Below, one piece after another: positions 4,404 through 23,880 of a DNA stretch of 24,748 bases. The position numbers were made by a program, and so were the translations under genes. The stretch covers positions 1-24,748 of IMG/VR virus record IMGVR_UViG_3300020214_000115, one strand, 5' to 3'. The stretch comes from a virus. The notes under the pieces are model-generated. The model saw nothing but the letters and a program-made list of their open reading frames with translations. It made no database searches and had not been told where the DNA came from. Positions within the stretch are counted from its first letter, which is position 1. Each line of letters starts with the position of its first letter.

Positions 4404-4802
4404 ATGGCGACTGTATCAAAACAAATAACATATAGAGATTTTGATCTGCGATTCATAGCCCATCCTATTACGGGTAAGCTTAATATGCTGAAAAATAGCA
4501 ATTCGATAAAACAGGCAGTAAAGAATCTGATTTTAACTAATTTCTACGAACGCCCATATGCTCCTCTATTTGGATCCGATGTTCGCGCTACGTTATTCGA
4601 AAATTATACGCCTCACACACAAGATGAATTGAGAGATGCCATAACAATAGCCCTAAATAACTTTGAGCCTCGCGTAGAATTGTTATCCATCGATTTTGGT
4701 GGTAACCCCGACCTCAATCAACTTTCTGTTTCAATTGTGTTTCGCCCAATCAATGCAGTCGAAGCTATAACCCTAAATGTCTCATTAGATAGAGTTCGAT
4801 AA
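4404..4802 (+). CDS. gp25: Baseplate wedge protein gp25
   Basis: This is the small wedge subunit that joins the gp6/gp7 core and contacts the first sheath ring, helping to start sheath assembly. The 132 residues match the T4 protein in size and show the gp25/IraD-like pattern: N-terminal YRDFDLRFIAHPITGKL, the helix and loop NLILTNFYERPYAPLFGS, and the conserved EPR motif at residues 88-90 (FEPRVELLSIDF). The C-terminal strands close the small alpha/beta fold. Homologues occur in most contractile systems, including type VI secretion (TssE). The start has AGGA just upstream. The stop and the gp6 start overlap as TAATG, the usual gp25-gp6 arrangement. This is one of the safest calls in the window. 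Confidence 0.93.
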   Translation: MATVSKQITYRDFDLRFIAHPITGKLNMLKNSNSIKQAVKNLILTNFYERPYAPLFGSDVRATLFENYTPHTQDELRDAITIALNNFEPRVELLSIDFGGNPDLNQLSVSIVFRPINAVEAITLNVSLDRVR

Positions 4803-6655
4803 TGGCCGCAAATACTGCTATACCCGTAACGGGGTTGAATTATAACGAGATTCGCGCGAATTTGCGCGATTTCATATCGGCTAAGCCAGATTTTGCTGAC
4901 TTTGATTTTCAAGATTCTGCTCTGGGCACTCTACTCGATCTATTGGCATACAACACATATTATAATGCGTTCTATGCCAGCATGGCCGCGTCCGAGGCCT
5001 TTATTGATAGCGCACAGTTTTATGATAGCGTAGTTTCTCGCGCAAAGCTGGTAAATTACACACCAACTTCAGCACAGGGCGCTACGGCCAATGTTAGAAT
5101 ATCATTTGTGAATGCCGCGGTCAGTTCGTCACTTCTATCTATCAATATACCTAAAAACACAGAATTCACATCGACCATCAATAATATATCATATACTTTT
5201 GTGACTCCTCGGGCGTATACAGTTCTTGCCAATTCCAGCAACGGATTTGCAACTAATATCGATCTAGTTGAAGGTACACCACTAACGCATCGATATCTAT
5301 TTACCTCATCCAACACCGAATTTATACTTCCAAATTCGGACGTCGATACTCGTAGCATTTCTGTAACCGTCACAAGTTCGGGTAATACGTCTACGTATAC
5401 GTCCGTTAGCGATATTCTTACTATTAATTCATCGTCCAAAATATTCTATATCGAAGCAGATCGTGATTCTAAGTACAAGATCAGTTTCGGTGACGACGTT
5501 CTTGGAGATAAACCCGACTTTAATAGCACAGTAGCTATTTCATATCGCGTATGCAATGGCACTAGAGGTAATGGCGCTAACAATTTCACAACGGCAGGAA
5601 GTATCGATAATCAATCGGTATTCACTTTATCTGTAAATAATCGCGCAGTAGGCGGCTCTGGCCAAGAAGATATTGAATCCGTTCGATTTAATGCGCCCAA
5701 AAATTATGAGACTCAAAATCGAGCCGTTATTGCAGCCGATTATCAGCGTATCATTCTACGCGATAATAGGGATCTGCAGGCTGTCAATGTCTGGGGTGGT
5801 GAAGAAAATGATCCGCCCATTTATGGTAAAGTATATGCTTCAGTCAAGCCTATTGTTGGTACTCTAATATCTGCATCTCGCGCCGCTCAAATAAAAACAA
5901 ACATTCGTAAGTATAATGTGCAATCTATCGATTTGGAAATTGTTGATCCCACATTTGTATTCATTGAACCGACCATTACGGTAAATATGAACGTCGAAGC
6001 AACTACACTAACTGCATCGGAAATTGCGGCCCTTGTCGCAGCACGAGTAATTACATATGAGGGCACCAATCTCAATCGATTTGGTGGGCGATTTAGGTAT
6101 TCTAAATTTCTTAATTATCTGGATAATTCCGATATCGGTATTACCGGCTCTTCTGGTTCAGTGCAGCTACAGAAGCGATTCATACCATCGACAACCGTTA
6201 AAAATTCATATACATTCAATTTTAATCAGCGAATCGCAAATCACATGGGAGGAACTAATTCAGCCGTGTCAAGTAGTAGATTTACATTAAACGGCGAAGC
6301 TAATTCATTTATAGATGACGACGCTGAAGGTAATATTCGCACATACTATACTTCAGGTATCGATAAAATTTATACTAATGCTATAGCTGGGACAGTGAAT
6401 TATGACACGGGCAAAATCGTATTAAATGCTTTTATACCAACTGCATACGTAGGCAATCACATATCGATAAATGTAACCCCCACCACTCAGAATTTCGCGC
6501 CAATACGAAATCAGATATTGCTAATATCAGGAGCATCAATAAAAGTATTCGACGATGAGACGCAAAAGGAATTGGCAGCTATTACTAGTGTCAATACCAT
6601 TGGGAAATCTGCTAATGTTTCTGAGACCGGACTTGCTCCAGTGACGACGTACTAA
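4802..6655 (+). CDS. gp6: Baseplate wedge protein gp6 (gpJ-like)
   Basis: This is the main wedge subunit; dimers form the continuous ring around the hub that transmits the signal for sheath contraction. The 617 residues compare with 660 in T4. The N-terminus is diagnostic: GLNYNEIRANLRDFI followed by FADFDFQDSALGTLLDLLAY, with NTYYNAFYASMAASEAFIDS, as in gp6/gpJ proteins. Around residues 230-330 the gpJ-like core is visible (YKISFGDDVLG, then NRAVGGSGQEDIESVRFNAP and QNRAVIAADYQRIILRD). The C-terminal ~200 residues are beta-rich and less familiar, and may contact neighbouring wedges or fibres. It overlaps gp25 (TAATG) and ends one base before the next start. Confidence 0.92.
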   Translation: MAANTAIPVTGLNYNEIRANLRDFISAKPDFADFDFQDSALGTLLDLLAYNTYYNAFYASMAASEAFIDSAQFYDSVVSRAKLVNYTPTSAQGATANVRISFVNAAVSSSLLSINIPKNTEFTSTINNISYTFVTPRAYTVLANSSNGFATNIDLVEGTPLTHRYLFTSSNTEFILPNSDVDTRSISVTVTSSGNTSTYTSVSDILTINSSSKIFYIEADRDSKYKISFGDDVLGDKPDFNSTVAISYRVCNGTRGNGANNFTTAGSIDNQSVFTLSVNNRAVGGSGQEDIESVRFNAPKNYETQNRAVIAADYQRIILRDNRDLQAVNVWGGEENDPPIYGKVYASVKPIVGTLISASRAAQIKTNIRKYNVQSIDLEIVDPTFVFIEPTITVNMNVEATTLTASEIAALVAARVITYEGTNLNRFGGRFRYSKFLNYLDNSDIGITGSSGSVQLQKRFIPSTTVKNSYTFNFNQRIANHMGGTNSAVSSSRFTLNGEANSFIDDDAEGNIRTYYTSGIDKIYTNAIAGTVNYDTGKIVLNAFIPTAYVGNHISINVTPTTQNFAPIRNQILLISGASIKVFDDETQKELAAITSVNTIGKSANVSETGLAPVTTY

Positions 6656-6656
6656 C

Positions 6657-8798
6657 ATGCCGGCCGTCGGGTCAAATGATGTATATCGTAAGCTATCTTC
6701 TCAGATTGAATCTCAGTTTTCTGAATTCATTCGAGCAGATGGTCCAAAATTTATTTCGTTTGTCAAGGCGTATTTTGAATACATGGAGCAGAGCAACAAA
6801 GCTCTAGATTCGAGTCGAGGGCTATTTGATAATCTAGATATCGACCGAACGGTCGATGATTTCATAGAATACTTTCAGCGTGAATTCATGAATACTATTC
6901 CGCGCAATATTGCAGCAAATAAAAGATTACTGATAAAACATATTAAACAGCTATATCGATCACGTGGTTCTCAGGAATCGTATAGATTTCTGTTTAGGGC
7001 CATGTTCGATACCGAAATAGATTTCTATTATCCTGGCGACGATATTCTTAGAGTTTCTGATGGGCGATGGGTTGATGAAATCGTTTTAAACGGGTATAGG
7101 ATTGATGGTGATCCTCTTCTTATGGACGGGCGACTAATTACTGGACAAACATCAGGTGCTACGGCTCAAGCTATAGAAACATTAAACATCACATCTTTGG
7201 GTGTATCGCTATATCAGTTTCGTCTACAGTCTCTACGGGGAACATTTACTGCCGATGAACTTATTAGCGACGGACAAGGCAATTCAATTCGGCTTAATAG
7301 CACAGTCGGCGAATTATCGTCGGTAACTATTATTGATGGCGGCGCATTTAATCAATCAGGCGATGCGTTATCTATATCTGGCGTTTCTGGTACTGGCTCA
7401 GCCACTGCAACTGTATCAGCTACATCTGAACAGAGCGCAATGACTTTTCGGATTGTCAATGGTGGTTCTGGATATCGTACTGCCAATAGTATAATTACAA
7501 TGAGCGGCGGTGGACCGGTTCGAACAGCGCGAATTTCCATTGTTAATATATCTAATACTCAAAATATAACCATAAATCAAGACGTTATTGGTGGTGTTAA
7601 AAATGTAGTCCTCAATACAGGCTCAACATTCAGTACGGGATCGACTAATAGCACAGCACTAAGTGCTAATCTGGCAGCTGCCAATATAACATCGACTATG
7701 GCGACTGCATTAAAATTCTCTAATATAACGGTAGGTTCGATTAACACCATTGCACTATTGGATCCAGGCGTTGGATATACCAGCGTACCTACAGTAGATA
7801 TAGTGGATGCCGATGTTTCTATTCAATCGATAGTGGATGTCGATAAGGGAGGACTTAAGGGTCATAATGCGGTAATTGTAGCTAATACCGTGCCAGGAAC
7901 TGTTACTTCGATTTCTATCAATAGTGCCGATTCCAATTTCGTTCGTGATGATGTACTCACAATAACAAATAATACAAGAAGCATAGCCAATACAACCGAC
8001 ACATCTACAGACATTAAGGCCAATATAACCCGTGGTCTTATTCGACAGGGAGTATATAATGCCAACGGCGTAGCTAGTGTTTTTAGCGTAAAAACACTAG
8101 GTGGGCGTTATATCGATACGCGTGGTCTTATAAGTTGGAATAATAAACTACAAGATAATTATTACTATCAAGAATATTCATACGTCATCCGAGCCACAAA
8201 ACTCGTAGACGAGTATAGAAATGCTATAAAGAAGATATTACATCCTGCTGGTACCAAGATGTTTGGTATTCTGGACACAAATAGTACTTTGGATCTTTCG
8301 TCGTTCGGCACTGTCGATACCGTAGTGGATGATAGTATTCTAAGTGTCGAAGTCTCCGCTATTCCTGATTTGTATGAATCTATTCTACTGACCGATTCTA
8401 TATCTGGCGGTATTCAGCATGCTGGTACAATTACAGAATCTACGACAAGCACCGATGCAACAGACGCAGCCAATATAACAACAGCAGCCATTAGTGAATC
8501 GGCCACAGCAACAGATACTCCAGACGCAGCCAATATAACAACAGCAGCCATTAGTGAATCGGTCACAAGCACTGATGCAACAGACGCAACCAATACAGCA
8601 GTTGCTGCCCTTGGTGAATCGGTCACAAGCACCGATGCAACAGACGCAACCAATACAGCAGTTGCGGCAATTACAGAGCAAAGCGGTATTCTATTAACGT
8701 GGGAAAATGTGATCGAATCTAGTTATGATCCGCAGGTTATATCTGATGTGCTTGATGGTCTTCTTTCAATTGACGATACTGTCAATGCTACTACGTAA
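6657..8798 (+). CDS. Baseplate wedge structural protein in the gp7 position, with C-terminal 20-residue repeats
   Basis: By gene order (gp6, this, gp8) it occupies the place of T4 gp7, which bridges gp6 to the peripheral baseplate. Its sequence is the type found in marine T4-like phages rather than T4 itself. Residues 1-140 are a helical domain (QIESQFSEFIRADGPKFISF, YFEYMEQ, then RLLIKHIKQLYRSRGSQESY). Residues about 140-450 are beta-rich with GxGY turns (NGGSGYRTAN, DPGVGYTSVPTVDI) as in other wedge proteins. Residues about 490-540 return to a helix (YYYQEYSYVIRATKLVDEYR). Residues 592-671 are four tandem 20-residue Thr/Ala/Asp-rich repeats, followed by an acidic tail. The virion role is confident; the name gp7 is positional only. 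Confidence 0.75.
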   Translation: MPAVGSNDVYRKLSSQIESQFSEFIRADGPKFISFVKAYFEYMEQSNKALDSSRGLFDNLDIDRTVDDFIEYFQREFMNTIPRNIAANKRLLIKHIKQLYRSRGSQESYRFLFRAMFDTEIDFYYPGDDILRVSDGRWVDEIVLNGYRIDGDPLLMDGRLITGQTSGATAQAIETLNITSLGVSLYQFRLQSLRGTFTADELISDGQGNSIRLNSTVGELSSVTIIDGGAFNQSGDALSISGVSGTGSATATVSATSEQSAMTFRIVNGGSGYRTANSIITMSGGGPVRTARISIVNISNTQNITINQDVIGGVKNVVLNTGSTFSTGSTNSTALSANLAAANITSTMATALKFSNITVGSINTIALLDPGVGYTSVPTVDIVDADVSIQSIVDVDKGGLKGHNAVIVANTVPGTVTSISINSADSNFVRDDVLTITNNTRSIANTTDTSTDIKANITRGLIRQGVYNANGVASVFSVKTLGGRYIDTRGLISWNNKLQDNYYYQEYSYVIRATKLVDEYRNAIKKILHPAGTKMFGILDTNSTLDLSSFGTVDTVVDDSILSVEVSAIPDLYESILLTDSISGGIQHAGTITESTTSTDATDAANITTAAISESATATDTPDAANITTAAISESVTSTDATDATNTAVAALGESVTSTDATDATNTAVAAITEQSGILLTWENVIESSYDPQVISDVLDGLLSIDDTVNATT
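8430..8669 (+). repeat. Four tandem 60-bp repeats in the gp7-position gene
   Basis: Four in-frame 60-bp units start at 8430, 8490, 8550 and 8610, each coding 20 residues of the form ISES-x-TSTDATDA-x-N-x-x-x-AA. Units 1 and 2 share a long identical block (CAGACGCAGCCAATATAACA and onward), and units 3 and 4 differ at only a few bases. Because the period is a multiple of three, copy number can change without breaking the gene. Confidence 0.92.
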
Positions 8799-8810
8799 TT
8801 GATATTACGT
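8793..8810 (+). other. Small perfect inverted repeat over the stop of the gp7-position gene
   Basis: ACGTAAT (8793-8799) and ATTACGT (8804-8810) form a 7-bp perfect stem with a 4-base loop; the gene's TAA stop lies in the left arm. No U-tract follows, so it is not a canonical intrinsic terminator. It sits directly before TATAAATA and could be a weak transcript-end hairpin or chance. Confidence 0.35.
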
Positions 8811-8812
8811 CT

Positions 8813-8820
8813 TATAAATA
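8813..8820 (+). promoter_or_regulatory. T4-type late promoter TATAAATA
   Basis: TATAAATA at 8813-8820 matches the T4 late promoter core (read by the gp55 sigma-like factor) exactly. It lies in the 57-base gap before the small gene at 8856, giving a short leader with AAAGGG at about 8842-8847 as a possible ribosome site. Its position in one of the few intergenic gaps supports function. No such exact octamer was noticed before the other genes. Confidence 0.6.
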
Positions 8821-8855
8821 GTTAATATTTTAACTACTCATAAAGGGTTCGCTCA

Positions 8856-9443
8856 ATGACTATCGAAACTATCAAGGTAAGTGACATCAACTCAGCCAGT
8901 GTGACGCGCAACGCTCAGACAAGTGAATCCGTATCGGTACAGGGCGTATATAAGGCCGTGTGCTATGATGCGGAAGGAAAGATCAAGTGGGAAGATAACT
9001 TCCCTAATACCGTTACTACGGTAGGTAAGAATAATCTTCTTAACATTTATCTCGGGGCTAACTCCATTACGGCTGTTCCTGTCACCTGGTATCTTGGGCT
9101 TATCGTAGCAAATGGGTATTCTGGAATTTCCGCAGCGGATACTGCTGCATCACATGCTGGCTGGTTAGAATCTGGCGCTCAAGGCGGGGCTGCTCCCGGT
9201 TATAGCCAGGGTACCCGTCGAGCCGTCACTTTCTCCGCGGCCGCTTCTGGCGCAAAGGCCACATCTAATGCTGCAATCTTTTCAATTAGCTCAGCTGGTA
9301 CATTTAAGGGAGCTTTCCTGATAAACAATGCGACAAAGGCTGGCACAGGCGGTATTCTGTATTCGGCCGGGCTATTCACTGTCGGCGACAAGGTAGTTAC
9401 AGCATCGGATACACTAAATGTAACATACACGGCATCTGCTTAA
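8856..9443 (+). CDS. Small virion-associated protein of a widespread phage family
   Basis: The 195-residue product resembles a small structural protein I recognise from many unrelated tailed phages and prophages, whose exact role is not established. Seen here are VYKAVCYDAEGKIKWEDNFP, NTVTTVGKN (about residues 51-59), WYLGLI (78-83), AADTAASHAGWLE (93-105) and a beta-rich second half with FSISSAGTFKGAF and LNVTYTASA at the end. It is probably an all-beta decoration or fibre-associated protein. It is not part of the standard T4 gp7-gp8 order. It has flanking gaps (57 and 28 bases), its own TATAAATA, and GC-richer DNA than its neighbours (40 of 60 bases G+C at 9181-9240), all consistent with insertion as an independently expressed cassette. 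The first ~30 residues are Ser/Thr-rich and may attach it to the particle. Confidence 0.7.
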   Translation: MTIETIKVSDINSASVTRNAQTSESVSVQGVYKAVCYDAEGKIKWEDNFPNTVTTVGKNNLLNIYLGANSITAVPVTWYLGLIVANGYSGISAADTAASHAGWLESGAQGGAAPGYSQGTRRAVTFSAAASGAKATSNAAIFSISSAGTFKGAFLINNATKAGTGGILYSAGLFTVGDKVVTASDTLNVTYTASA

Positions 9444-9471
9444 TTTCATCAAATCATCATAGAGTATAGCT

Positions 9472-11061
9472 ATGCCTGGTATTATTACAAAACGATTTCG
9501 AATAAACAATGCCAAGCAATTTTTTGATGCAATAACTGCTGTCACAAAGAAATTATATATCTTCATCGGCCGCGTGACGCCTTATGCCAATGAAGCTGCG
9601 CCAACTACGCCAACCGATACATTTCAAAACACTCACTTTGATGGTTATCGCGACATGATTGCAATGAAACGAGTGCAGTCTTCCGACATATCGCAAGTAA
9701 TATCTAAATATTTATGGGCCAATAATACTGCTTATACTCAATATATCGACACCAGTGCGTCATTGTTTCCTACCTCAACATCAGTCTATTCGAATACTAC
9801 ATTCTACGTATTAACCGATGCTGATAACGTATATAAATGTATATACAATAATCGTGGTGGGCGATCAACCATAAAGCCTACTGGGACAAGTACGTCTATC
9901 ATAACTACAGCCGACAAATATCGCTGGAAATTTCTATACAACATAAGTGGAGCAGATAAAACTAAATTCTTTTCTACCTCATTTATTCCTGTAAAGACAC
10001 TAACAGCTAATAATGGAAGTGCTCAGTGGTCAGTTCAGCAGGCCGCATCAAATGGTGCAATACATAATATTCTAATTACAGCTAATGGAACAGGATATAT
10101 AACGACATCAAATACATTCTCGGCCGTATCAAATAGTACGACGATGGTGTTAAAGAATAATGCAAGTACTACCGATGACATTTATACACTATCGACTCTA
10201 TATATTTCTGCTGGATTAGGAGCTGGTCAGCTTCGTAAAATCGTGAACTATGTCGGATTAACCCGTACTGTAACAGTAAATACCGCTTTTACTCAAACAC
10301 CAAATACATCTTCTAGTTATATTGTAGGTCCAAACGTAATCATAAAAGGTGATTCTGGAGGCTCCAGCGCACAGCGCGCGACCGCATACGTTTCGAATGC
10401 TGCATTTGGGCAAATTCGAGATATCACGATGATAACCGAGGGTCTACACTATTCCACAGCTAACGTATCTATTTCGGCCAATTCATCTTATGGGTCAGGC
10501 TGTGTCGCCACACCAATAATATCGCCTAAGGGTGGGCACGGTAAAGATCCCGTACAAGAGCTTGGTGCAGTCAATGTTATGCTAAGTGTGCGCGTAACAG
10601 GAGCGGAATCCAATACATTTCCTACCAATAATGACTTTCGTATAATTGGTATAGTGAGCGATCCATTACTTCGTGGTGGCTCATCGGCTAATGCGTCAGT
10701 AATCGATCAGTGTAGCAGAATTACCGTCACGTCGCTTTCTGGCGATCTTACTTCCGATGAAATCATTACTGGTGGTACCAGCGGAGCTAAATCCAGGTTT
10801 GTACAATTTGCCAATACAAATAGTGCGCGAACAGCAGGTATAGTTCGTGTTATTCGAGTTGCCACAAATGGAACAGGTGGCACATATAGTGTAGGGGAAA
10901 CTGTCACTGGAAGTGTTTCGGGAAAAACTGCCACGGTAGCATCATTTACCAAGCCTGCCGTGAGAGAATTTACCGGAAACATCATATATACTGAGAACAG
11001 GACGTCTATCGCAAGAGCGCCCGAACAATTAGAGGACATTAAAATGGTTGTGAAATTCTAA
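9472..11061 (+). CDS. gp8: Baseplate wedge protein gp8 (extended form)
   Basis: gp8 dimers lie at the outer part of the wedge and link the gp6-gp7 core to gp10. The N-terminal ~200 residues carry the pattern of marine T4-like gp8: KQFFDAITAVTKKLYIFIGR, then DGYRDMIAMKRVQSSDIS, a YLWANNTAYTQY segment, and residues about 119-158 with VYKCIYNN, IKPTGTSTSIITTADKYRWK. T4 gp8 is 334 residues; this protein is 529 because of a beta-rich C-terminal extension with GTGY-type turns and Ser/Thr/Asn-rich strands, which may dock the giant protein that follows. The stop overlaps the next start as TAATG. The start at 9472 has only a weak ribosome site. Confidence 0.87.
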   Translation: MPGIITKRFRINNAKQFFDAITAVTKKLYIFIGRVTPYANEAAPTTPTDTFQNTHFDGYRDMIAMKRVQSSDISQVISKYLWANNTAYTQYIDTSASLFPTSTSVYSNTTFYVLTDADNVYKCIYNNRGGRSTIKPTGTSTSIITTADKYRWKFLYNISGADKTKFFSTSFIPVKTLTANNGSAQWSVQQAASNGAIHNILITANGTGYITTSNTFSAVSNSTTMVLKNNASTTDDIYTLSTLYISAGLGAGQLRKIVNYVGLTRTVTVNTAFTQTPNTSSSYIVGPNVIIKGDSGGSSAQRATAYVSNAAFGQIRDITMITEGLHYSTANVSISANSSYGSGCVATPIISPKGGHGKDPVQELGAVNVMLSVRVTGAESNTFPTNNDFRIIGIVSDPLLRGGSSANASVIDQCSRITVTSLSGDLTSDEIITGGTSGAKSRFVQFANTNSARTAGIVRVIRVATNGTGGTYSVGETVTGSVSGKTATVASFTKPAVREFTGNIIYTENRTSIARAPEQLEDIKMVVKF

Positions 11062-14000
11062 TGGCATCCATAGCAAATACCGCCACTCTCTCTACCAATC
11101 TGAATGTCGATCCTTACTATGATGATTTCAATGAGTCTAAGAATTTTCATCGAGTTCTGTTTAGACCGGGCTTGGCTGTGCAGGCGCGCGAGCTTACGCA
11201 GATGCAATCTATTCTTCAGAACCAGATTGATCGCTTCGCAGAGCATATATTCAAGGAAGGTAGCATCGTTCGTGGATGTGAACTAAATCTTGATCAGAGA
11301 TTTTATTATGTGAAGCTTCGCGATAAAAATTCTACAGGGTCTACGGTAAACGCGGCCGCGTTTTTAAATAAGACAGTTAAGGGAACAACGTCTGGTGTTC
11401 GTGCTATTGTTAATGCTACTACCGATGGCTCGCAAGCCAATACACCAAACTTTAAGTCATTATATGTAAAGTATACTGCCGCAAATACAAGTGGCGCAAA
11501 GTTTTTTGCTAATAATGAAATTCTAACAGCCACAGATGGATCAGGCATCACGGCCAATACAATTACGGCCGCTATGGGTGGCGCTACAGGTCACGGCAGT
11601 TCAATCACGATTGCCTCTGGTGTCGTGTTCGCGAAAGATCATTTCATTCGTGTCGATGAACAAACGCTAACTCTGGAGAGATATTCGGCTAATGCGACAT
11701 TCCGTATTGGTTTGGATATTAATGAGAGCATCGTATCCGACGTTGATGATACTACTCTACTCGATCCCGCAAGTGGCGCATTTAATTATGCTGCTCCAGG
11801 CGCAACTCGATTAAAGCTTGTGGCCACACTCGCCAAAAAAACAACTACAGAAAACACTGCGAATAATTTCATCGAACTTATGCAAATTAAGGGTGGTGTA
11901 GTTCAAAGTCAGTCCGACAAGCCTGAATATGCTGCAATCAAGGATTATATCGCTGGGCGTACATACGATGAATCGGGCAACTATATTGTTCACGGAATGA
12001 GTATTCGTCTGAGAGAACATCTATATAGTGCCAACAATCAAGGCACATTCACGGCCGCACAGGGCGGTAACACTAGTCTTATAACGATTGATATGCAGCC
12101 CGGCAAGGCTTACGTTCAGGGATATGATATTGAAACTTTAGTGACAAAACAACTTAATATTAAAAAAGGCATTGATTTTCAATCTCTAGAGCAGGTCAAG
12201 ACATTAATTGATTATGGTAATTACGTTATAGTCGATAACGTAGTTGGTGCATGGGATATCAATGGTCAGGATACAGTTACACTGCGCGGCCAACAGGCCA
12301 ATGCGATAAGCACTCGCTCATATTCGACAACCAATTATCCTGCTTCCTCCATTGGTACTGCCCGCGTGCGTGGGTTAGAATATTATTCGGGCACTCCTGG
12401 TCTTCCGTCCGCTCAATATAAGATGTATCTGACAGATATAAAAATGACGGCGGCCAACAAAAGTTTCGCTAATGTTCAATTTATTGGATTCTCAGCCGGT
12501 GGGTCAAGCGCGAACGGTAAAGCTGATATCGTTGGATCAAATGGACTTAATGCAAACACTACCGATCCCTCGTTCGATAGGGCAGTATTCAAGTTGCCCA
12601 CATTTGCAACGAAAAAACTACGTGATACATCAGGTAATATCGATACCGACTTTACCTTCTATAAATCATTCGATATATCGTTCGGTGCAACAGGCCAAGC
12701 CACTATAACTACGGGTGATAATTCGGAGCGTTTTGCCGGATCGGGCACATTAAGCGATTCCGCAACTAGGTCGAATTACTATATTATCTCACGGAGCTCG
12801 GCCAACACAAATACTCTCACCGGCACAGTAAGTGTAACGAGTGGTTCAAATACAGTAACTGGTTCTGGAACGGCATTTACAACGCAAGTAAACCCCGGCG
12901 ATCTGATTCGCATCGCTAATACTGGTACCACAAATTTTCTTGTGAGCGAAGTAACGAACGATACTTCACTGAAAGTGCTAAATGCTGCTGGTGTTACAAA
13001 GACGGGTATGCCGTTACACAAGAGATTTATACAGGGGCAAATTCTCGATCTTGGTGGCGTAGGTCGCGACGGCACGCGATCCATTACAGTTTCGGGTGCA
13101 CCCACGACTACTTCATTAATCGATTTAAATGAAACTCTTAATTCACCCTCAACGCTTACTGCTACTGCCATCGTCAAGCTTACCAAGGCGGATGGCCAAG
13201 AAGCAGCTAAAACTGTTGTTCGCGACAGATTAGTTCAGATTCGCATTGGTAATGCCGCTGCGGGAAATTCGTATGCAGGTAATACATCTGGACCATGGCC
13301 ACTAGGGCTATCCGATGGATTTAAACTTGTTTCGGTTCGCAAGCAAAGCGGAAGCAATTTCGCATCTGTATCTGCTGGGTCGGACGTAACGAATGACTTC
13401 ATTCTCGATAGCGGTATGCGCGATAACTTTTATGATCATGCCCGATTAGTTAAGAAGTCAGGTAGCGGTCTAACTATTTCTTCTGGTGATAGGCTTCTTG
13501 TTAAACTGGATCATTTCACTCATTCGTATTCGACAGGCGTAGGATATTTATCGGTAGATTCATATCCTGTAAACGATACAACGGCTGGATCAGATACGAC
13601 TAAAATCTTCACATATGAAATTCCCATATATACTTCGCCGTCAGATGGCAGGAGTTTTGATCTTCGCGATTCAATCGATGTACGACCACGCACGACTGAT
13701 ACTGCAAATAGCGTTACTACTCTGACTAATATATCGGTCAATCCATTGGTGTCAACATCATTCGATGAACCAAGTGGTGGTCTACATTTCTCTCCACCTC
13801 AAGAAGATTTGACGGCTGATCTTGACTATTATCTTGAGCGTAAGGATCTTATTGTTCTGGACAAGACTGGTTCGCTCCGTTCAATATCCGGTATGCCTTC
13901 ACTATTTCCACGCGCGCAGCCGGCGCCAGCCGAGGGCATTGTTCTGGCCGAAGTGAGTCTTGCTCCATATCCGTCACTTCCGTCTGAAATTGCGCGGCGA

Positions 14001-17000
14001 GTGGGCAGGCCTGATATGTCAAACGGTGTTTATCCTGTGAAGAATTCACGCTTTACAATGCGTGACATAGGCGTTATTAAGGATCGTGTAGACAATCTTG
14101 AATATTATACTTCTCTATCTCTTCTTGAAAACGATGCCAAGTCATTGATCGTTCAAGATGAAAATGGGCTAGATCGATTCAAGAACGGAATTTTAGTCGA
14201 TTCGTTTACCGGTCACAAGATCGGTAACGTATATGATTCCGATTACAAGATTGCAATCGATCCTTCGAAGGGTGAAGCTCGGCCTCCGTTTGCCATAAAC
14301 AACGTAGAACTATTTTACCATGCTGCGAATTCATCGAATGTCGTTCGCACAAATGTTACCGCCGATGGTATTTCTCGCGATCAGACAGTATTGATTAGTA
14401 ATTCACAAATTCTGTTCTCAAATAATGAAACTCTAACATCTGGTGCAAGCACGGCCAACCTTCGATATCAGGTAGACAACAAATTGTATATCGAAGCAGC
14501 TACCGGCAACTTTGCTGCGGCCGCTTCTGTAGTTGGCGGTACTAGCGGCAAAACAGCTACTATCAGTAGCACTATTACAACGACTGTTGGCGATCTGTTG
14601 ACTCTTCCATATACTCATGAAATTCTCGTAGATCAGAAATATGCAACTACTACTCGCAACGCGGCTGGAGCTTTCTACAATTGGGCTGGCGTGCTAGTTC
14701 TTGACCCAGCCGAAGATTATTGGGTAGATACGACGATTGCTCCTGCCGTTCAGGTTAATTTCGATTTAAATACAGATAATTGGTTGCATCTGGCCAATTC
14801 ATGGCAGACACAATGGGGCGCATGGAACACAGTATGGACAGGTACGAGACCTAGTGGAGCAACTTCGACTAGTACTTCAGGTGTATATGCGTCGGGCCAA
14901 CAGCTCCTGCAGGACTTCACCGTATCCAATGAAATGGTGACTACTACTGGCTTAAGCCGAACTGGTATCATACCAACAATTACAGTGCAGAATACAACAC
15001 AGTCTTTGGGTAATACTCTCCGTGATGTGAATCTACAGCCCTACATGCGCTCGCGTGTCATTCGATTTACAGCCCATGCAGTAAAGCCAAGCACACGATT
15101 ATACGCATTCTTCGATGGTACGAATGTGTCCAATTACGTGACGCCGACCAACTCTTCGTTTGCAAACACAGCAAACGAGGGCGGTATTCTAACAAGCGAT
15201 AGCACAGGCAGATTATACGGTATGTTCCGTATACCAAATGATAGCGCGCTTCGATTCAATACAGGATCGCGCAATCTGCGCTTTACGGATAATCCTTCGA
15301 ACGCTCAGAGTCTGGGGCTTCTTACAACTTCGGCCGAAGCTACATATACAGCCCAGGGTCTTTCTACTACAGCGCAAGACACAATTGTTGCGACAAGATA
15401 TCCTGTAATCTCTCAGACAACAACGACAGAGACGACAACTACGACAACAAGTAATTGGATTCAAGTCGGTGGCGGCACAAATGTTGTCGGCACTATACCT
15501 GATCCGGTGCCGATACAGGTCGCCGCGGCGACCATCGAAGTGGAGATTCCACCGTCGGCCCCCGTCGCGGAGGCCTTGGCGCCGGCGATCCCGACGGACG
15601 AGTCCGGCAACCCTCTACGGGTCAACAACGATCCCGGCGGTAATGCCGCCGCCGACATCGATCCCATATCCCAGACATTTCTTGTCAATACTGTGCAATC
15701 GTCCAGAATATCTGGCACAGGCGCGTTCATCACCAAAGTCGATCTATTCTTCTCGACAAAGGATCCGACTCTACCAGTCACCGTGGAAATTAGAGAAGTC
15801 GATCCGGTTACTGGGCATCAAACATTGCGTAGAGTTCCCTATGGTCAGGCTATTGTAGCATCGTCTCTTGTCAATACAAGCACCGATGGCAGCAAACCCA
15901 CACCGTTCTACTTCCCTTCGCCAGTATATCTTTTGAATAATCGTTCATATGCAATCGTAGTCATTCCCGGCGCAACAAATCCTAATTATCGTGTATTCAC
16001 GGCTCGAATTGGCGAAAACGATTTGCTGACGGGCAACAGAATTACAGCCCAGCCCGCATCCGGTACGATGTTTATTTCCTCAGATGATCGTACCTACAGC
16101 GCAGTTCAAGAAGAGGATATGAAGTATCGCCTGTATATGGCCAAATTTAACAAGTCCTTGGTTGGTAGTATTGTGGTCAAAAATGAAAATCGCGATTATC
16201 TGACTGTAGCAAATCAATCGGCCGCACTTCATAAGATTGGTGAACAAGTTCACGGGATAACTCTTCTTCATGGTACATTTGCAAATACAAAAACCCTAAG
16301 CGTTGCAAACAATACGACATTTGCACAGGGCATGGTATCTGGTGCCACTGGTATAGTTACCTCGTTTTCGGCCAACACGGTTACTGTTCGCGATGTTACC
16401 ACGGCTGTTAAATTCAAGGGCAAAGAGAGAATTCGTATACGTACAAACAACGCAACGAGCGGCGGTATTGTCGGTAATTCGACAGGCGTTATAATATCGG
16501 CCACTACTCCAATTGGCTTTGTTACCTACTACGATGCGGTGAACTACGCAAATACTCACCTGCATCTTTCTAACACATCATTTATAAACAGCGGTGCCGC
16601 GTGTACTTCCAATCGTATGTTCACGAACAATACATTTATACGTGGGCAGTCAAACGGATATACCGCACGAATCGTTGCAATGAATAGACTTCAGGGAGAT
16701 ATATTTAAGTTTACAACTGATTATCTACAACCATCAAATACTACTATCTCTTCAAGTGCCAAGATGGCTTTATCTAACTCGTCACGCGATACGTCATATG
16801 TCTCTATCAATATTAATGAAGACACCGAACTGAATGTGCCTCGCTTTATTCTATCGCGGTCAGTAGAGTCTAATACCAGTGCCAGTAGTAGTTCATTCGC
16901 ATCATCTCGGTCGGCCGAGTTCAAAATCGCGATTAAGTCTACTAGCGATTTGTCAAGCCCGGCCTTTGATTTGCGCCGTACTTCACTTTGCCTGATAGAA

Positions 17001-17513
17001 AATCTTATCAACTCCAATAATGCTATTGGGTCAAGTGAAGACGGCATTAAGACTGGCGGTAATGCAAAGGCTAAATATATTAGCCGGCGCGTAACACTGG
17101 CTGATGGACAAGATGCCGAAGACCTTCGTGTATATGTAACAGCATATAAGCCAAGTGGCGCAGGAGTGCATGTTTATTATAAGGCTCTGAATAGAGAAGA
17201 CAGCGATACTTTCTCTGATTCTAGCTGGATACCAATGACTCCTGTAACAGACGCTGGTTTCACAAGCACTGCGCGGTATTCATCCAGTGAGGATACAGAG
17301 GATTTTCTAGAGCTGGCCTATAAGATAGATTCATATTCAAATACACACAAGTCAGGAGCCAATACGACAAGTGGTATTATGGAATATCGCAATACACTGG
17401 GCGCACGATATACGGGCTTCAAGTATTTCGCAATCAAGATTGTTCTAACGCATACTACAAGCACACGGCCGCCACGTATTCGCGATTTCCGCGCAATCGC
17501 ACTACAGATTTAA
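11061..17513 (+). CDS. Giant DUF4815-type baseplate/fibre-connector protein (gp10-like)
   Basis: At 2150 residues this is the largest gene here. It is of the DUF4815 kind found after gp8 in marine T4-like phages, often named gp10, and probably forms the peripheral structure joining wedge and fibres. Seen: residues about 15-60, DPYYDDFNESKNFHRVLFRP and VQARELTQMQSILQNQIDRF; about 310-380, AGRTYDESGNYIVHGMSIRL and MQPGKAYVQGYDIE; about 930-1060, LDYYLERKDLIVLDKTG, FTMRDIGVIKDRVDNLEYYT and LVDSFTGHKIGNVYDSDYKI. A second conserved block starts near residue 1532 (DPISQTFLVN, then ITKVDLFFSTKDPTLPVTVE). The C-terminal ~500 residues are beta-rich with a final strand block similar to jelly-roll receptor-side domains. 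The linker at about 1480-1530 is encoded by a GC-rich patch (15500-15665). Product and position are confident; the exact role is by family. Confidence 0.85.
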   Translation: MASIANTATLSTNLNVDPYYDDFNESKNFHRVLFRPGLAVQARELTQMQSILQNQIDRFAEHIFKEGSIVRGCELNLDQRFYYVKLRDKNSTGSTVNAAAFLNKTVKGTTSGVRAIVNATTDGSQANTPNFKSLYVKYTAANTSGAKFFANNEILTATDGSGITANTITAAMGGATGHGSSITIASGVVFAKDHFIRVDEQTLTLERYSANATFRIGLDINESIVSDVDDTTLLDPASGAFNYAAPGATRLKLVATLAKKTTTENTANNFIELMQIKGGVVQSQSDKPEYAAIKDYIAGRTYDESGNYIVHGMSIRLREHLYSANNQGTFTAAQGGNTSLITIDMQPGKAYVQGYDIETLVTKQLNIKKGIDFQSLEQVKTLIDYGNYVIVDNVVGAWDINGQDTVTLRGQQANAISTRSYSTTNYPASSIGTARVRGLEYYSGTPGLPSAQYKMYLTDIKMTAANKSFANVQFIGFSAGGSSANGKADIVGSNGLNANTTDPSFDRAVFKLPTFATKKLRDTSGNIDTDFTFYKSFDISFGATGQATITTGDNSERFAGSGTLSDSATRSNYYIISRSSANTNTLTGTVSVTSGSNTVTGSGTAFTTQVNPGDLIRIANTGTTNFLVSEVTNDTSLKVLNAAGVTKTGMPLHKRFIQGQILDLGGVGRDGTRSITVSGAPTTTSLIDLNETLNSPSTLTATAIVKLTKADGQEAAKTVVRDRLVQIRIGNAAAGNSYAGNTSGPWPLGLSDGFKLVSVRKQSGSNFASVSAGSDVTNDFILDSGMRDNFYDHARLVKKSGSGLTISSGDRLLVKLDHFTHSYSTGVGYLSVDSYPVNDTTAGSDTTKIFTYEIPIYTSPSDGRSFDLRDSIDVRPRTTDTANSVTTLTNISVNPLVSTSFDEPSGGLHFSPPQEDLTADLDYYLERKDLIVLDKTGSLRSISGMPSLFPRAQPAPAEGIVLAEVSLAPYPSLPSEIARRVGRPDMSNGVYPVKNSRFTMRDIGVIKDRVDNLEYYTSLSLLENDAKSLIVQDENGLDRFKNGILVDSFTGHKIGNVYDSDYKIAIDPSKGEARPPFAINNVELFYHAANSSNVVRTNVTADGISRDQTVLISNSQILFSNNETLTSGASTANLRYQVDNKLYIEAATGNFAAAASVVGGTSGKTATISSTITTTVGDLLTLPYTHEILVDQKYATTTRNAAGAFYNWAGVLVLDPAEDYWVDTTIAPAVQVNFDLNTDNWLHLANSWQTQWGAWNTVWTGTRPSGATSTSTSGVYASGQQLLQDFTVSNEMVTTTGLSRTGIIPTITVQNTTQSLGNTLRDVNLQPYMRSRVIRFTAHAVKPSTRLYAFFDGTNVSNYVTPTNSSFANTANEGGILTSDSTGRLYGMFRIPNDSALRFNTGSRNLRFTDNPSNAQSLGLLTTSAEATYTAQGLSTTAQDTIVATRYPVISQTTTTETTTTTTSNWIQVGGGTNVVGTIPDPVPIQVAAATIEVEIPPSAPVAEALAPAIPTDESGNPLRVNNDPGGNAAADIDPISQTFLVNTVQSSRISGTGAFITKVDLFFSTKDPTLPVTVEIREVDPVTGHQTLRRVPYGQAIVASSLVNTSTDGSKPTPFYFPSPVYLLNNRSYAIVVIPGATNPNYRVFTARIGENDLLTGNRITAQPASGTMFISSDDRTYSAVQEEDMKYRLYMAKFNKSLVGSIVVKNENRDYLTVANQSAALHKIGEQVHGITLLHGTFANTKTLSVANNTTFAQGMVSGATGIVTSFSANTVTVRDVTTAVKFKGKERIRIRTNNATSGGIVGNSTGVIISATTPIGFVTYYDAVNYANTHLHLSNTSFINSGAACTSNRMFTNNTFIRGQSNGYTARIVAMNRLQGDIFKFTTDYLQPSNTTISSSAKMALSNSSRDTSYVSININEDTELNVPRFILSRSVESNTSASSSSFASSRSAEFKIAIKSTSDLSSPAFDLRRTSLCLIENLINSNNAIGSSEDGIKTGGNAKAKYISRRVTLADGQDAEDLRVYVTAYKPSGAGVHVYYKALNREDSDTFSDSSWIPMTPVTDAGFTSTARYSSSEDTEDFLELAYKIDSYSNTHKSGANTTSGIMEYRNTLGARYTGFKYFAIKIVLTHTTSTRPPRIRDFRAIALQI
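15500..15665 (+). other. GC-rich island inside the DUF4815 gene
   Basis: Within an otherwise AT-rich gene, about 165 bases jump to high G+C: 45 of 60 bases at 15541-15600, against 24 of 60 at 15361-15420. The stretch codes a Pro/Ala/Glu linker (VEIPPSAPVAEALAPAIPTD) between the beta-rich middle and the conserved DPISQTFLVN block. Codons there end mostly in C or G, unlike the rest of the gene. Boundaries are by eye. Confidence 0.7.
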
Positions 17514-17514
17514 C

Positions 17515-17730
17515 ATGTATACAAAAGTGAAAGATGCGCCTGGTTTTGTTCGAGGAGAAAACTCCGCTATATTATCGACAGATGTGGCGAGTTTAACTTC
17601 ATATAAAAAACGGCGCGATCAGCTTAATGAAATGAGAGCTGCTGTACATGATATAAATAACATGAAGATAGAATTAAATGAAATAAAATCCATGTTGCAA
17701 ACAATTATCGGAAAAATACAAAATGGCTAA
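17515..17730 (+). CDS. Small coiled-coil protein between giant connector and fibres
   Basis: The 71-residue product starts MYTKVKDAPGFVRGENSAIL and ends with a strongly helical heptad-like segment (residues about 30-68: hydrophobic I, L and M spaced between charged residues, for example MKIELNEIKSMLQTIIGKI). The N-terminal pattern KVKD-x-PGFVR-x-x-x-x-AIL-x-TD resembles short conserved proteins in structural clusters of T4-like marine phages; their function is unknown to me. It starts one base after the giant gene and overlaps the first fibre gene by eight bases, so it is probably translated with them. It may be a fibre attachment or assembly factor. Expression is likely; function is a guess. 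Confidence 0.6.
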   Translation: MYTKVKDAPGFVRGENSAILSTDVASLTSYKKRRDQLNEMRAAVHDINNMKIELNEIKSMLQTIIGKIQNG

Positions 17731-18855: not shown

Positions 18856-20595
18856 ATGGCCAAGATTGCAAACGTTGAAACATCAGATACTTTTTCAATA
18901 TGGCGAATTCGGTCGAACGCGGCATTTGATCGGCTGAGTCAGTTTGCAATAAACAATTCATTGCTATATGCAAATACAGTTACGGCTAATAACAACCTCA
19001 ATGCATTGAAAAATGCCACGATTACAAAGAATCTAACTGTATCTGGTAATACAACATTAGGCGCTGCTGGTAAGACGATTACATCCACAGGTGTTCTAGC
19101 TCACACTGGTAATCTAACTATATCTGGTAATACGACATTTAGTAATCCCATAACTTACGGCGGCGTCACGCTCAGCAACTCCGTCACCGGCACTGGGAGC
19201 ATGGTACTTGCAACTGCTTTAACATCAACCAATACAGCACTTCGTACACTAATTGCGGATAGATTGCAGGTTGCTAATGCCGCAGCAATCTATCAGACTA
19301 AAGCAATTGAACGAGCTGCGTTGGCGAATACAAACGCATCGATATCAAATGTTAAAACTGGTTTAACATCAACCAATACAGCACTTCGTACACTAATTGC
19401 GGATAGATTGCAGGTTGCCAATGCCGCTACAATATATCAGACTAAATCAATTGAACGAGCCGCGTTGGCGAATACAAACGCATCGATATCAAATGTTAAA
19501 ACTGGTTTAACATCAACCAATACTGCGCTTCGGACTCTTATATCAGATAACACCTTCGGCTACAAGAACCGCATCATCAATGGCGACATGCGCATCGACC
19601 AGCGCAATGCCGGCGCGACCAAGCAAATCACCGCAACCAACGACTACACTACAGACCGCTGGCGGGCCATCGCCACGGGCGCCGGCCGCATGGACTTCGC
19701 GCGTTCGACCTCGACACCGCCGACTGGGTTCTCGCATTTTTTGCGGATGACTGTGGGCGTCGCCGACAACTCGCTCACGAGCACTGACGAGTATTTCATC
19801 TCGCAGCGTATCGAAGGCTTCAATATCGCAGATTTGTTGTTCGGGTCGGCCAGCGCCAAAGCCGTTACGTTGTCATTCTGGGTGCGTTCAAGCCTCACCG
19901 GAGCGTTCTCTGGCGCACTTCGCAACGCGGCCGGAGGCGCGCTCAACCGCTCCTATCCGTTCTCGTACACCATCAGCGCGGCGAGCACCTGGGAGCAAAA
20001 GACCGTCACTTTGACGGCTGACACTTCCGGTACGTGGACAACCGACGCGAGTATTGGCGTTGAGGTGTGCTTCTGCGTAGGCGCGGCAACGGGTCAACTT
20101 GGGACAGCCAATGCTTGGACAGGACCCACCGCTGTATCCGGTGTTACCGGCACAACCAATGTCATGGCGACCGTTTCAAACACCTTTGACCTCACCGGCG
20201 TCCAGCTGGAGAAGGGCACCGTCGCGACCGGCTTCGATGTCCGCTCGCATCAGCAGGAGCTGGCGCTTTGCCAGCGCTACTTCTGCAAGACCTTCCCGGT
20301 CGGCACCGCTCCGGTCACCGGGGCGAGCAGCATCGGCTGCTTGTCGCAGAACGGCCGTGAACTGCTCTTGTCCTTCACCAAGGACTGGCGTTTTCCGGTG
20401 ACCATGCGCGCCAGCCCGACGGTGACGACCTATTCGCTCGATGCCGGGCAGACCTACTGGAAGGGCTATATGCTCGGGAGTACCGCGACATCAAACGTGA
20501 CCAATTCCGGCGACCTGGCCTGCCTGCTGACCGGCACGAACCAGAACGGCCTCGACCTCTTCATCATCCACGCAACGGCAGCGGCGGAGCTGTGA
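18856..20595 (+). CDS. Tail fibre B with GC-rich prophage-type adhesin C-terminus
   Basis: Residues 1-110 repeat the fibre A N-terminus and shaft (RLSQFAINNSLLYANTVTAN, LTVSGNTTLGAAGKTITSTG). Then comes FSNPITYGGVTLSNSVTGTG, a motif common in prophage fibres. Residues 122-217 are two 48-residue repeats (LTSTNTALRTLIADRLQVAN, then IYQTKAIERAALANTN), probably a trimeric coiled-coil shaft. From residue 234 the protein changes completely: GYKNRIINGDMRIDQRNAG, YTTDRW, and QLEKGTVATGFDVRSHQQEL with LALCQRYFCKTF. This module is one I recognise from many proteobacterial phages and prophages, thought to be a beta-sandwich receptor- or carbohydrate-binding domain. The DNA switches at about 19552 from AT-rich to about 67% G+C (40 of 60 bases at 20221-20280). 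An assembly-chaperone-like gene follows immediately. Confidence 0.87.
   Translation: MAKIANVETSDTFSIWRIRSNAAFDRLSQFAINNSLLYANTVTANNNLNALKNATITKNLTVSGNTTLGAAGKTITSTGVLAHTGNLTISGNTTFSNPITYGGVTLSNSVTGTGSMVLATALTSTNTALRTLIADRLQVANAAAIYQTKAIERAALANTNASISNVKTGLTSTNTALRTLIADRLQVANAATIYQTKSIERAALANTNASISNVKTGLTSTNTALRTLISDNTFGYKNRIINGDMRIDQRNAGATKQITATNDYTTDRWRAIATGAGRMDFARSTSTPPTGFSHFLRMTVGVADNSLTSTDEYFISQRIEGFNIADLLFGSASAKAVTLSFWVRSSLTGAFSGALRNAAGGALNRSYPFSYTISAASTWEQKTVTLTADTSGTWTTDASIGVEVCFCVGAATGQLGTANAWTGPTAVSGVTGTTNVMATVSNTFDLTGVQLEKGTVATGFDVRSHQQELALCQRYFCKTFPVGTAPVTGASSIGCLSQNGRELLLSFTKDWRFPVTMRASPTVTTYSLDAGQTYWKGYMLGSTATSNVTNSGDLACLLTGTNQNGLDLFIIHATAAAEL
19218..19547 (+). repeat. 144-bp tandem repeats in fibre B
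   Basis: Two full 144-bp units start at 19218 and 19362, and a partial third runs from 19506 to about 19547. Each full unit codes 48 residues beginning LTSTNTALRTLIADRLQVAN. The GC-rich module begins right after the partial third unit. The same unit occurs in fibre C. Confidence 0.93.
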
Positions 20596-20998
20596 CCATG
20601 TACCAGGCAGTGAATACAGCGATGATCCGCCGCCTGTCCGATGGCGCATTCATCCCGATCGACGAGGCCAACGCCGACTATCGGCAGTACCTCGCCTGGG
20701 CGGAGCAGGGCAACAGGCTGCAGCAGGCCGATCAGCCAAGTGCCGCAGAACTCAACGCACCGATCCTCATGGAGCTTGCCGCCCGCGACGCCAAGGTCAT
20801 TCGGGCGCTGGTGGAGGGCGACACCGTGCGGATCGAGGCGCACAAAGCGAAACAGGCCGAGCTGCGCGCCCGGCTGGTGACGCCATGACGCCGGCGCGAT
20901 CGGACGACCTCGATGCCTATGCCATTGCGGTTGAGGCGCGGGAGCGGTCCGCGCCACCCACGTGCGAAATCATCGACGTGGACGAATTCGGCGACCCA
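19552..20998 (+). other. GC-rich cassette II (adhesin module plus chaperone-like gene)
   Basis: The segment covers the C-terminal two thirds of fibre B, the 96-residue gene at 20598, and the first ~38 codons of the 54-residue ORF at 20885. It is clearly GC-richer than the flanks and uses G/C-ending codons. Both ends are abrupt: the left follows a 144-bp repeat remnant, and the right lies within the small ORF near 20998, where AT-rich sequence (GAACTAAATAGTC and on) resumes. Likely acquired from a GC-rich prophage or host. Confidence 0.75.
20598..20888 (+). CDS. Tail fibre assembly chaperone-like protein
   Basis: The 96-residue product follows the fibre B stop directly. It has MIRRLSDGAFIPIDEANADY followed by RQYLAWAEQGN, a pattern (IRR-x-x-DGAFIP-x-D-x-AN-x-DY-x-x-YLAW) I associate with small tail-assembly or fibre-assembly proteins beside prophage adhesin genes. 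It probably assists folding or trimerisation of the matching C-terminus. I chose ATG 20598, which has GGAG at 20586-20589 eight bases upstream; GTG 20592 would add two residues but has no comparable site. The second half is helical and alanine-rich (ELAARDAKVIRALVEGDTV, KAKQAELRARL). The DNA is GC-rich like the fibre B tip, so both probably arrived together. Confidence 0.7.
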   Translation: MYQAVNTAMIRRLSDGAFIPIDEANADYRQYLAWAEQGNRLQQADQPSAAELNAPILMELAARDAKVIRALVEGDTVRIEAHKAKQAELRARLVTP

Positions 20999-21049
20999 AT
21001 TACTGAACTAAATAGTCTAGAATTATTTACTAAAAATATAGAAAGTTAA
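20885..21049 (+). CDS. 54-residue chimeric small ORF at the right end of cassette II
   Basis: This ORF starts inside the previous stop (ATGA) and codes 54 residues. The first ~38 codons are GC-rich (MTPARSDDLDAYAIAVEARE, then PPTCEIIDVDEFGD) and the last ~16 are AT-rich (ITELNSLELFTKNIES). The break at about 20998 is where cassette II meets phage backbone, so the ORF looks like a fusion made by recombination. The GC-rich part could be the start of a small prophage gene; the AT-rich part could be the end of an older phage gene. Coupled translation is plausible, but a functional product is uncertain. A CTAAATA motif lies in its 3' part (21008-21014). Confidence 0.4.
   Translation: MTPARSDDLDAYAIAVEARERSAPPTCEIIDVDEFGDPITELNSLELFTKNIES
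21008..21014 (+). promoter_or_regulatory. CTAAATA motif upstream of fibre C
   Basis: CTAAATA lies 42 bases before the fibre C start in the context GAACTAAATAGTC. The same GAACTAAATAG occurs upstream of gp25 (4349-4359). It could be a late-promoter-like element giving fibre C its own transcript. Function is inferred from motif recurrence and placement only. Confidence 0.35.
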
Positions 21050-21056
21050 ATGAAAT

Positions 21057-22322
21057 ATGGCCAAGATCGCAAACGTTGAAACATCAGATACTTTTGGAAT
21101 ATGGCGAATCCGTTCGAACGCGTCGTTTGATCGGCTAAGTCAGTTTGCAATAAACAATTCATTGCTATATGCAAATACAGTTACAGCTAATAACAACCTC
21201 AATGCATTGAAAAATGCCACGATTACAAAGAATTTACTTGTATCGGGCAATACGACATTAGGTGCTGCCGGTAAGACAATTACATCCACAGGTGTTCTAG
21301 CTCATACTGGTAATCTAACTGTATCGGGCAATACATCCACTAATAAAGCAACTGTTACATCGGCCCTAACAGTATCAGGCAATACGACATTTAGTAATCC
21401 CATAACTTACGGCGGCGTCACGCTCAGCAACTCCGTCACCGGCACTGGTAGCATGGTACTTGCAACTGCTTTAACGTCAACCAATACTGCGCTTCGTACA
21501 CTAATTGCGGATAGATTGCAGGTTGCCAATGCTGCTACAATATATCAGACTAAAGCAATTGAACGTGCGGCCCTTGCTAACACAAACGCATCGATATCAA
21601 ATGTTAAAACTGGTTTAACATCAACCAATACTGCGCTTCGGACACTAATTGCGGATAGATTGCAGGTTGCTAATGCCGCTCTTGGATCGCTGATTGGCTT
21701 ACAGGTCTTTACCGGCACCAGCACCTGGACGAAGCCGTCCAATCCATCGCCAACGTCCGTTGTCGTCTGGGTTACTGGCGGAGGCGGCGGTGGCGGCGGC
21801 GCGATCCTCTCCACGAATGGTACCGGCGGCGGCGCCGGCGGCACGGCAATCAAGCGGATCACCAGTGGCCTTGGGGCAACGGAAACGGTCACGGTTGGCG
21901 GGCCCGGGACAGGGGGCCTCAATTACGGCGCCGATAACAATGGCACCGCCGGCGGTACATCGAGCTTCGGCTCCCATTGCTCCGCCACAGGCGGCACGGG
22001 TGGCGCCGGCTCGACCCACGGCTTGCCTCACTTTCCACTCACGGCGAGCAAGGGCGGCCTCGGCGTGGGCGGCAACATCAATATAAACGGCGGCGACGGG
22101 GCCTGGGCTGCGCAAGTCGGGAGTGCGGCCGCACTGGTCGGCGGACATGGCGGCGCCAGCTATTGGGGCGGCGGAGGCCGCGGCGGCGGCGATGGCCATC
22201 CCGGGCCCGCATCTCAGGGGTACGCCGGCAAGGCCCATGGCAGTGGCGGTGGCGGCGCCCAGGGCCATGGCGTAGCCGGCGATGGTACGGTCGGTATCGT
22301 GGTCGTATGGGAGTACAGGTGA
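21057..22322 (+). CDS. Tail fibre C with glycine-rich adhesin C-terminus
   Basis: Residues 1-55 are again the shared attachment domain. The shaft then has LTVSGNTSTNKATVTSALTV, the TYGGVTLSNSVTGTGSM motif, and the 48-residue repeat from residue 139 with a partial second copy from 187. From about residue 216 a glycine-rich module follows: QVFTGTSTWTKPSNPSPTSV, VVVWVTGGGGGGGG, and many GG-rich loops to the end, VGIVVVWEYR. The family pattern (QVFT-x-x-x-TWTKP, then V-x-V-x-GGGGGG) is common in phage adhesins; the crystallised phage S16 gp38 adhesin tip uses polyglycine-II helices of similar composition. Variable loops between such helices bind receptors, so this is a probable receptor-binding tip. 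The module is GC-rich (47 of 60 bases at 22141-22200). A chaperone-like gene overlaps its stop (TGATG). Confidence 0.88.
   Translation: MAKIANVETSDTFGIWRIRSNASFDRLSQFAINNSLLYANTVTANNNLNALKNATITKNLLVSGNTTLGAAGKTITSTGVLAHTGNLTVSGNTSTNKATVTSALTVSGNTTFSNPITYGGVTLSNSVTGTGSMVLATALTSTNTALRTLIADRLQVANAATIYQTKAIERAALANTNASISNVKTGLTSTNTALRTLIADRLQVANAALGSLIGLQVFTGTSTWTKPSNPSPTSVVVWVTGGGGGGGGAILSTNGTGGGAGGTAIKRITSGLGATETVTVGGPGTGGLNYGADNNGTAGGTSSFGSHCSATGGTGGAGSTHGLPHFPLTASKGGLGVGGNININGGDGAWAAQVGSAAALVGGHGGASYWGGGGRGGGDGHPGPASQGYAGKAHGSGGGGAQGHGVAGDGTVGIVVVWEYR
21470..21684 (+). repeat. 144-bp repeat (one full, one partial copy) in fibre C
   Basis: A full unit starts at 21470 and a partial copy at 21614, both nearly identical to the fibre B units at 19218 and 19362. 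The partial copy ends where the foreign C-terminus begins, as in fibre B. Confidence 0.9.
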
Positions 22323-22780: not shown

Positions 22781-22841
22781 GATAAGTTCTTCCGGTATAA
22801 CATTCAATAATTCTACAGTTCAAGCGACAGCTACTGGTCCT

Positions 22842-23880
<1,039 letters not shown>

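Follow-up and report, generated by a model that had tools for sequence, protein, structure and literature searches.

What is a gene for a 195-aa protein doing between two conserved genes of a baseplate wedge operon, and to which gene does the late promoter before it belong? The window in which this question arises is a whole virus record of 24,748 b from a T4-like phage, with genes for the tail and baseplate: hub and gp5-like genes, gp25, gp6, a wedge gene in the gp7 position, gp8, a gene for a 2150-aa protein and tail-fibre-like genes. The components of the junction are as follows.

6657..8798, + strand: baseplate wedge gene in the gp7 position, upstream of the 195-aa gene (PF23786, 3.8e-12; phrog_17744, 7.7e-80)
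8813..8820, + strand: late-promoter motif TATAAATA, ATG 35 b downstream (in 21/21 occupied gaps read; PMC2984593)
8842..8847, + strand: AAAGGG, putatively ribosome-binding from its sequence, ATG 8 b downstream
8856..9443, + strand: 195-aa ORF for a phrog_8123 protein of unknown function, between the gp7-position gene and gp8 (ORF list; PHROG match)
8856..8939, + strand: codons 1-28, without predicted secondary structure and of low confidence in the AlphaFold2 model; possibly a tether
8940..9440, + strand: codons 29-195, predicted beta-rich domain and one helix, alignable to GP4 fibre I over residues 52-194 (model, VIA-align)
9444..9471, + strand: 28-b gap before gp8, without late motif (motif scan)
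9472..11061, + strand: gp8 baseplate wedge gene, downstream of the 195-aa gene (PF09215, 4.5e-12; phrog_438, 2.1e-100)

The layout described in the original prediction is borne out. A small gene does lie between the gp7 and gp8 positions, it is flanked by gaps (57 b upstream and 28 b downstream), and an exact TATAAATA stands upstream of it. The remainder of the wedge operon had been called overlapping; this is right for most of it, where genes touch or overlap (gp25 and gp6 by 1 b, gp8 and the next gene by 1 b, with 1 b between gp6 and gp7), but not upstream of gp25, where there is a gap of 55 b. The body of the gene is GC-rich as claimed (49.0%, compared with 41.3% for both gp7 and gp8), though the contrast is modest since 5.2% of 588-b windows over 4404-17513, the gene's own windows counted in, are equally GC-rich.

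Elsewhere in the window, the fibre region (19500-23000) reaches a GC content of 58-71% over stretches, far higher than the remaining sequence, and three consecutive small ORFs at 22770-23789 (97, 109 and 110 aa) are rich in Gly-Pro-Thr repeats and collagen-like. The gp7-position gene itself encodes 713 aa here, compared with 792-800 aa in loci L002-L004.

Presence, absence and exchange at the junction

Relatives of the gene are widespread, as had been proposed. In IMG/VR, 222 of 241 pattern matches encode one, as do 27 of 46 in genome contigs, the latter from varied bacteria and two archaeal bins; 17 among the best 80 of the 222 IMG/VR relatives lie before gp8. Is the gene then a fixed part of the junction? 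Among 54 gp8 relatives it is found in eight (in L117 only partly), a gp7-position gene stands directly before gp8 in 40, and L133 has other cargo. The other five of the 54 (L091, L102, L123, L124 and L134), in which the gp7 end lies outside the contig or is uncalled, were left out of the count; on a later look L091 ends like the empty group, with GATAAATA. Eight of the empty loci have short ORFs upstream of gp8, which a check identified as the ends of gp7. With the named phages L137, L147 and L148 the 40 make up 43 empty gaps, a number that includes near-copies as well as L147, whose pre-gp8 gene carries the annotation of a putative fibre and may not be gp7. Ochrobactrum phage OC and Pelagibacter phage HTVC008M are among the named phages that have no copy before gp8. 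The gp7-gp8 spacing in relatives, which the original prediction had put forward as a check, supports its view of an add-on: the gene is present in 21 gaps read, and since 43 gp8 loci lack it, it is not always found at this place.

The trees were built from chosen subsets, of 42 rows for gp8 and 52 rows for the protein of the 195-aa gene. On the gp8 tree, presence of the gene requires three changes, all three forced by starred branches, compared with 13.9 in shuffles; gain and loss are indistinguishable in this count. The gene is not fixed, its presence or absence having been switched at least three times on the gp8 tree, and it is an add-on.

It is also exchanged. Between loci L015 and L113 the likeness is 73% for gp8, 71% for gp6 and 56% for the protein of the 195-aa gene, while for L015 and L011 the corresponding values are 62, 66 and 84%. 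In AU tests, the data of the gene reject the pairing of L015 with L113 (5e-69) and the gp8-type clade (0.008), and the gp8 data reject the grouping given by the gene (5e-8); that grouping is not rejected by the gp6 data (p 0.09). These tests used 15, 15 and 14 rows, and the groups were named after the larger trees had been seen. It is well shown that alleles of the gene move independently of gp8. The 17 T4-slot copies that were used lie on one side of a branch in the 52-row protein tree; as the support is only 80/80, a single entry into the slot is possible.

The same place holds other cargo in a few lineages. In L133 the upstream gene is separated from gp8 by a 96-aa ORF (1166-1456). In Pelagibacter phage Mosig (L146 3381-5957) a tail fibre gene, a 161-aa gene and a gene annotated as a tail assembly chaperone come directly before gp8. 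Synechococcus phage BUCT-ZZ01 has a 157-aa gene (phrog_5417) that is a distant relative by profile (hhalign 95.2%, E 2.9e-8) and is likewise directly upstream of gp8, but it is preceded by gp5 rather than gp7. On the other side of gp8, L134 carries a 192-aa ORF (770-1348) between gp8 and the next large gene that resembles a GIY-YIG homing endonuclease by eye.

The late motif and the gene it belongs to

According to PMC2984593, the late promoter is TATAAATA in T4 and KVP40 and NATAAATA in cyanophage S-PM2. Its mere occurrence in the window says little: there are two copies of TATAAATA compared with 2.08 expected, and we rejected this count, which is at the level of chance, as stand-alone evidence. 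The only other copy (17652-17659) is inside a small ORF (17515-17730), ~63 b upstream of a tail-fibre-like gene at 17723. Position is more telling. Dinucleotide shuffles of the 57-b gap generate the motif in 2.2% of draws, and over nine shuffled gaps the range is 0.15 to 2.9%. Yet a late motif of the TATAAATA/NATAAATA type is found close upstream in all of the 21 occupied gaps read, the window included; these comprise 17 distinct sequences, from loci that are akin to each other so that the gaps are not independent, and L014 and L117 were left out of the reading. The late motif before the 195-aa gene is more than chance by position, not by count.

Other candidate signals near the start of the gene fared less well. 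A sigma-70-like site at 8799-8828 (9/12) overlapping the gap was discounted, there being three such sites in all against 2.5 expected. An inverted repeat AGTTAA-TATT-TTAACT is found at 8820-8835, where transcription would be expected to start; it is not kept in L002, and is therefore probably due to chance.

Does the promoter belong to the gene? According to the original prediction it did: the gene was taken to be a moron, an independently transcribed addition with its own late promoter. Morons of temperate phages are add-ons that lie between two conserved genes and are missing in relatives, and some properties of the 195-aa gene fit this description. It is absent from an otherwise kept junction (the 43 empty gp7-gp8 or pre-gp8 junctions), so missing from many relatives; a GC content that is modestly higher would lean the same way. 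Leader length tracks the allele type: one type has leaders of 30-43 b, while those of the other, and that of L017, measure 14-18 b. The leader therefore seems to travel with the gene. Moreover, where the cargo is different, in L133 and Mosig, one TATAAATA precedes the cargo and a second precedes gp8.

The gaps that lack the gene nevertheless point the other way. A late motif lies directly upstream of gp8 in 36 of the 43 empty gaps, with TATAAATA in five, another NATAAATA in 31 and neither in seven; by distinct sequence (n = 21) the corresponding numbers are four, 12 and five. In the sister loci L017, which has the gene, and L121, which does not, promoter and leader can be aligned with each other. 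Scanning of 17 occupied loci, the window included, found no late motif between the gene and gp8, and none within the gene in 16 of the 17, the exception being L116. A true moron would also be expected to have a terminator, but a simple consensus scan of 8600-9700 found no terminator-like site on the + strand, the single site found being on the - strand. The private promoter is rejected because the empty junctions already carry the late motif before gp8. In the simplest reading, drawn from comparison of these sequences, the 195-aa gene would have gp8 downstream of it and an older late promoter of gp8 upstream. What stands of the earlier claim is the add-on; what finds no support is its transcriptional independence, as the promoter appears to be older and shared with gp8. 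We consider a true moron, with promoter and terminator of its own, distinctly improbable, and the gene is probably better read as cargo placed downstream of the older gp8 promoter.

Family and predicted fold of the protein

What kind of protein is the cargo? It has no match in Pfam at E <= 0.1, so that PF23140, the family of GP4 gp80, is unmatched, and the sole match in PHROG is phrog_8123 (E 1.2e-15, residues 24-192). A tblastn search of named phages gave no match at 1e-5; four records were returned at E <= 10, Mosig not among them. A profile of 41 family members is more productive. In hmmsearch it matches chain U of PDB entry 26la (26la_U), named 'Structural protein' (E 6.8e-13). The printed stretch of that chain matches ORF007 of Pseudomonas phage KPP25 with 100% identity over 158 aa, as it does two more Pseudomonas phages, and hhalign gives 99.4% with the group of KPP25, Rollin, AP1 and MW202615. 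A second entry, PDB 44nx, has a KPP25-type homologue together with KPP25 ORF006. With the KPP25-type match in the PDB, one member of the family has therefore been solved as a phage structural protein. On profile evidence over most of its length, the window protein belongs to the phrog_8123 / KPP25 ORF007 family. The Pfam model of GP4 gp80 (PF23140) is found in 3 of 38 family members at E <= 1, the best at 2.3e-5. Our literature text searches found nothing on phrog_8123 and nothing linking 26la with phage cryo-EM, the matches to 26la being on other subjects by title and abstract, and KPP25 is not mentioned among the matches listed for its structure.

The comparison with KPP25 has limits. ORF007 is likewise a small structural protein gene of the same family by profile, but it encodes 171 aa in another phage type, follows ORF008 and precedes ORF006 outside any T4 wedge operon, and is represented in PDB entries, while the window phage is known from sequence alone.

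AlphaFold2 predicts a beta-rich domain for the window protein, with the first 28 residues lacking secondary structure. We compared this model, and that of the distant allele in L114, with known structures using VIA-align. GP4 fibre I of Ralstonia phage GP4 (PDB 8jou chain a) matches with Z = 9.4 for the window model (rmsd 2.9, 122 aligned, 22% identity) and Z = 8.7 for L114 (rmsd 3.2, 119 aligned, 21% identity). A tail chain of HFTV1, named 'Baseplate hub' in its entry, gives Z = 8.7 (rmsd 5.0, 132 aligned) and 9.0 (rmsd 5.3, 132 aligned), respectively. Each is thus best in one model and second-best in the other, and in both models connector, neck and baseplate-arm proteins of phages come next, at Z = 6-7. 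GP4 fibre I has the same fold, which does not by itself show function, and it comes from a podophage whose Pfam family PF23140 is unmatched by the window protein. From the titles, 8jou chain a appears to be gp80. GP4 fibre I is reportedly a chain of gp80 dimers. The HFTV1 match, at the higher rmsd of 5.0-5.3, is to a domain (PDB 9h4p chain BD, about 375-507); the hub protein that contains it has 954 aa and comes from an archaeal virus.

Foldseek gave no match in the PDB at E <= 0.001, and GP4 is absent among the 50 rows listed; these include phage connector and neck chains and others, such as astrovirus spikes, that we took as unrelated. Against viral models there are 31 matches at E <= 0.001, including tail fibres of Stenotrophomonas and Xanthomonas phages. 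The many PRMT chains at Z = 4.1-5.8 in VIA-align were taken to reflect a common sandwich rather than kinship.

Probable role in the virion and the nature of the junction

Taken with the homologue in two PDB entries, the fold supports a virion role of the fibre type. The more particular suggestions of a 'fibre cap' or a 'decoration' protein find no specific support. The reading that we favour, by a modest degree, is that this late gene is exchangeable and that its small product serves as a bead or arm in a tail appendage; the exchange is well shown, and the role would follow from homology and fold. A late promoter would act at the gp7-gp8 junction of most relatives examined, where its motif is conserved. 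In some lineages the gene is placed between that motif and gp8, so that the late transcript of gp8 would have it as first cistron. The trees show gain or loss of the gene, and replacement of its alleles, independently of gp8. By homology and predicted fold its protein is a small bead, rich in beta structure and flexible in its N-terminal tail; it would be carried in a tail or baseplate appendage touching the host surface, and swapping or losing the gene would retune adsorption while leaving the conserved wedge undisturbed.

The protein might instead decorate the capsid or neck, its gene lying in the wedge operon by chance. Scanning chosen neighbours of homologues elsewhere gave a mixed set, with tail-fibre, virion-structural, portal, major head and weak head-decoration genes, and a head or neck role therefore has to be weighed. 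Homologues adjoin portal genes in L045 and L031 and major head protein genes in L050 and L151, that of phage AP1 follows a gene of the 'head closure Hc3' family, and in L026 the gene immediately before it encodes 762 aa that match 'head decoration' weakly; the structural matches include chains of the Bas63 connector and the Sf14 neck, with Z = 6.3-6.7. Yet a tail fibre and a baseplate hub take the first two places in both models, and other homologues adjoin tail-fibre genes (L067, L080 and L151). We think such a location unlikely.

A helper outside the virion, for instance a chaperone in the assembly of gp7, gp8 or the fibres, is very unlikely. Mosig does have an annotated tail assembly chaperone in the slot, and T4 gp8 is reported to assist the folding of gp6 (PMC3004832), but the homologue is a 'Structural protein' in two PDB entries.

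How general is the arrangement? An exchangeable appendage gene could be one instance of a wider property of the junction, by which T4-like phages would keep a standing cargo dock between gp7 and gp8, with a conserved late promoter and, downstream of it, small adhesion genes that are slotted in, swapped and lost. The examples are the bead family, the 96-aa gene of L133, the fibre-plus-chaperone set of Mosig, and the distant relative before gp8 in BUCT-ZZ01. It is because L133 and Mosig also hold cargo before gp8 that we raise this reading; the lineages are few, and we put it at a little under an even chance. If it is true, such phages would adjust adsorption within the wedge operon, separately from their main tail-fibre genes.

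If the tail-appendage reading is right, a family of unknown function that is spread over unrelated tailed phages would gain a testable role. The junction would offer a natural comparison, between relatives with, without and with swapped copies of a small surface protein at a single place, and it would mark a site with room for an additional late gene in T4-like phages.
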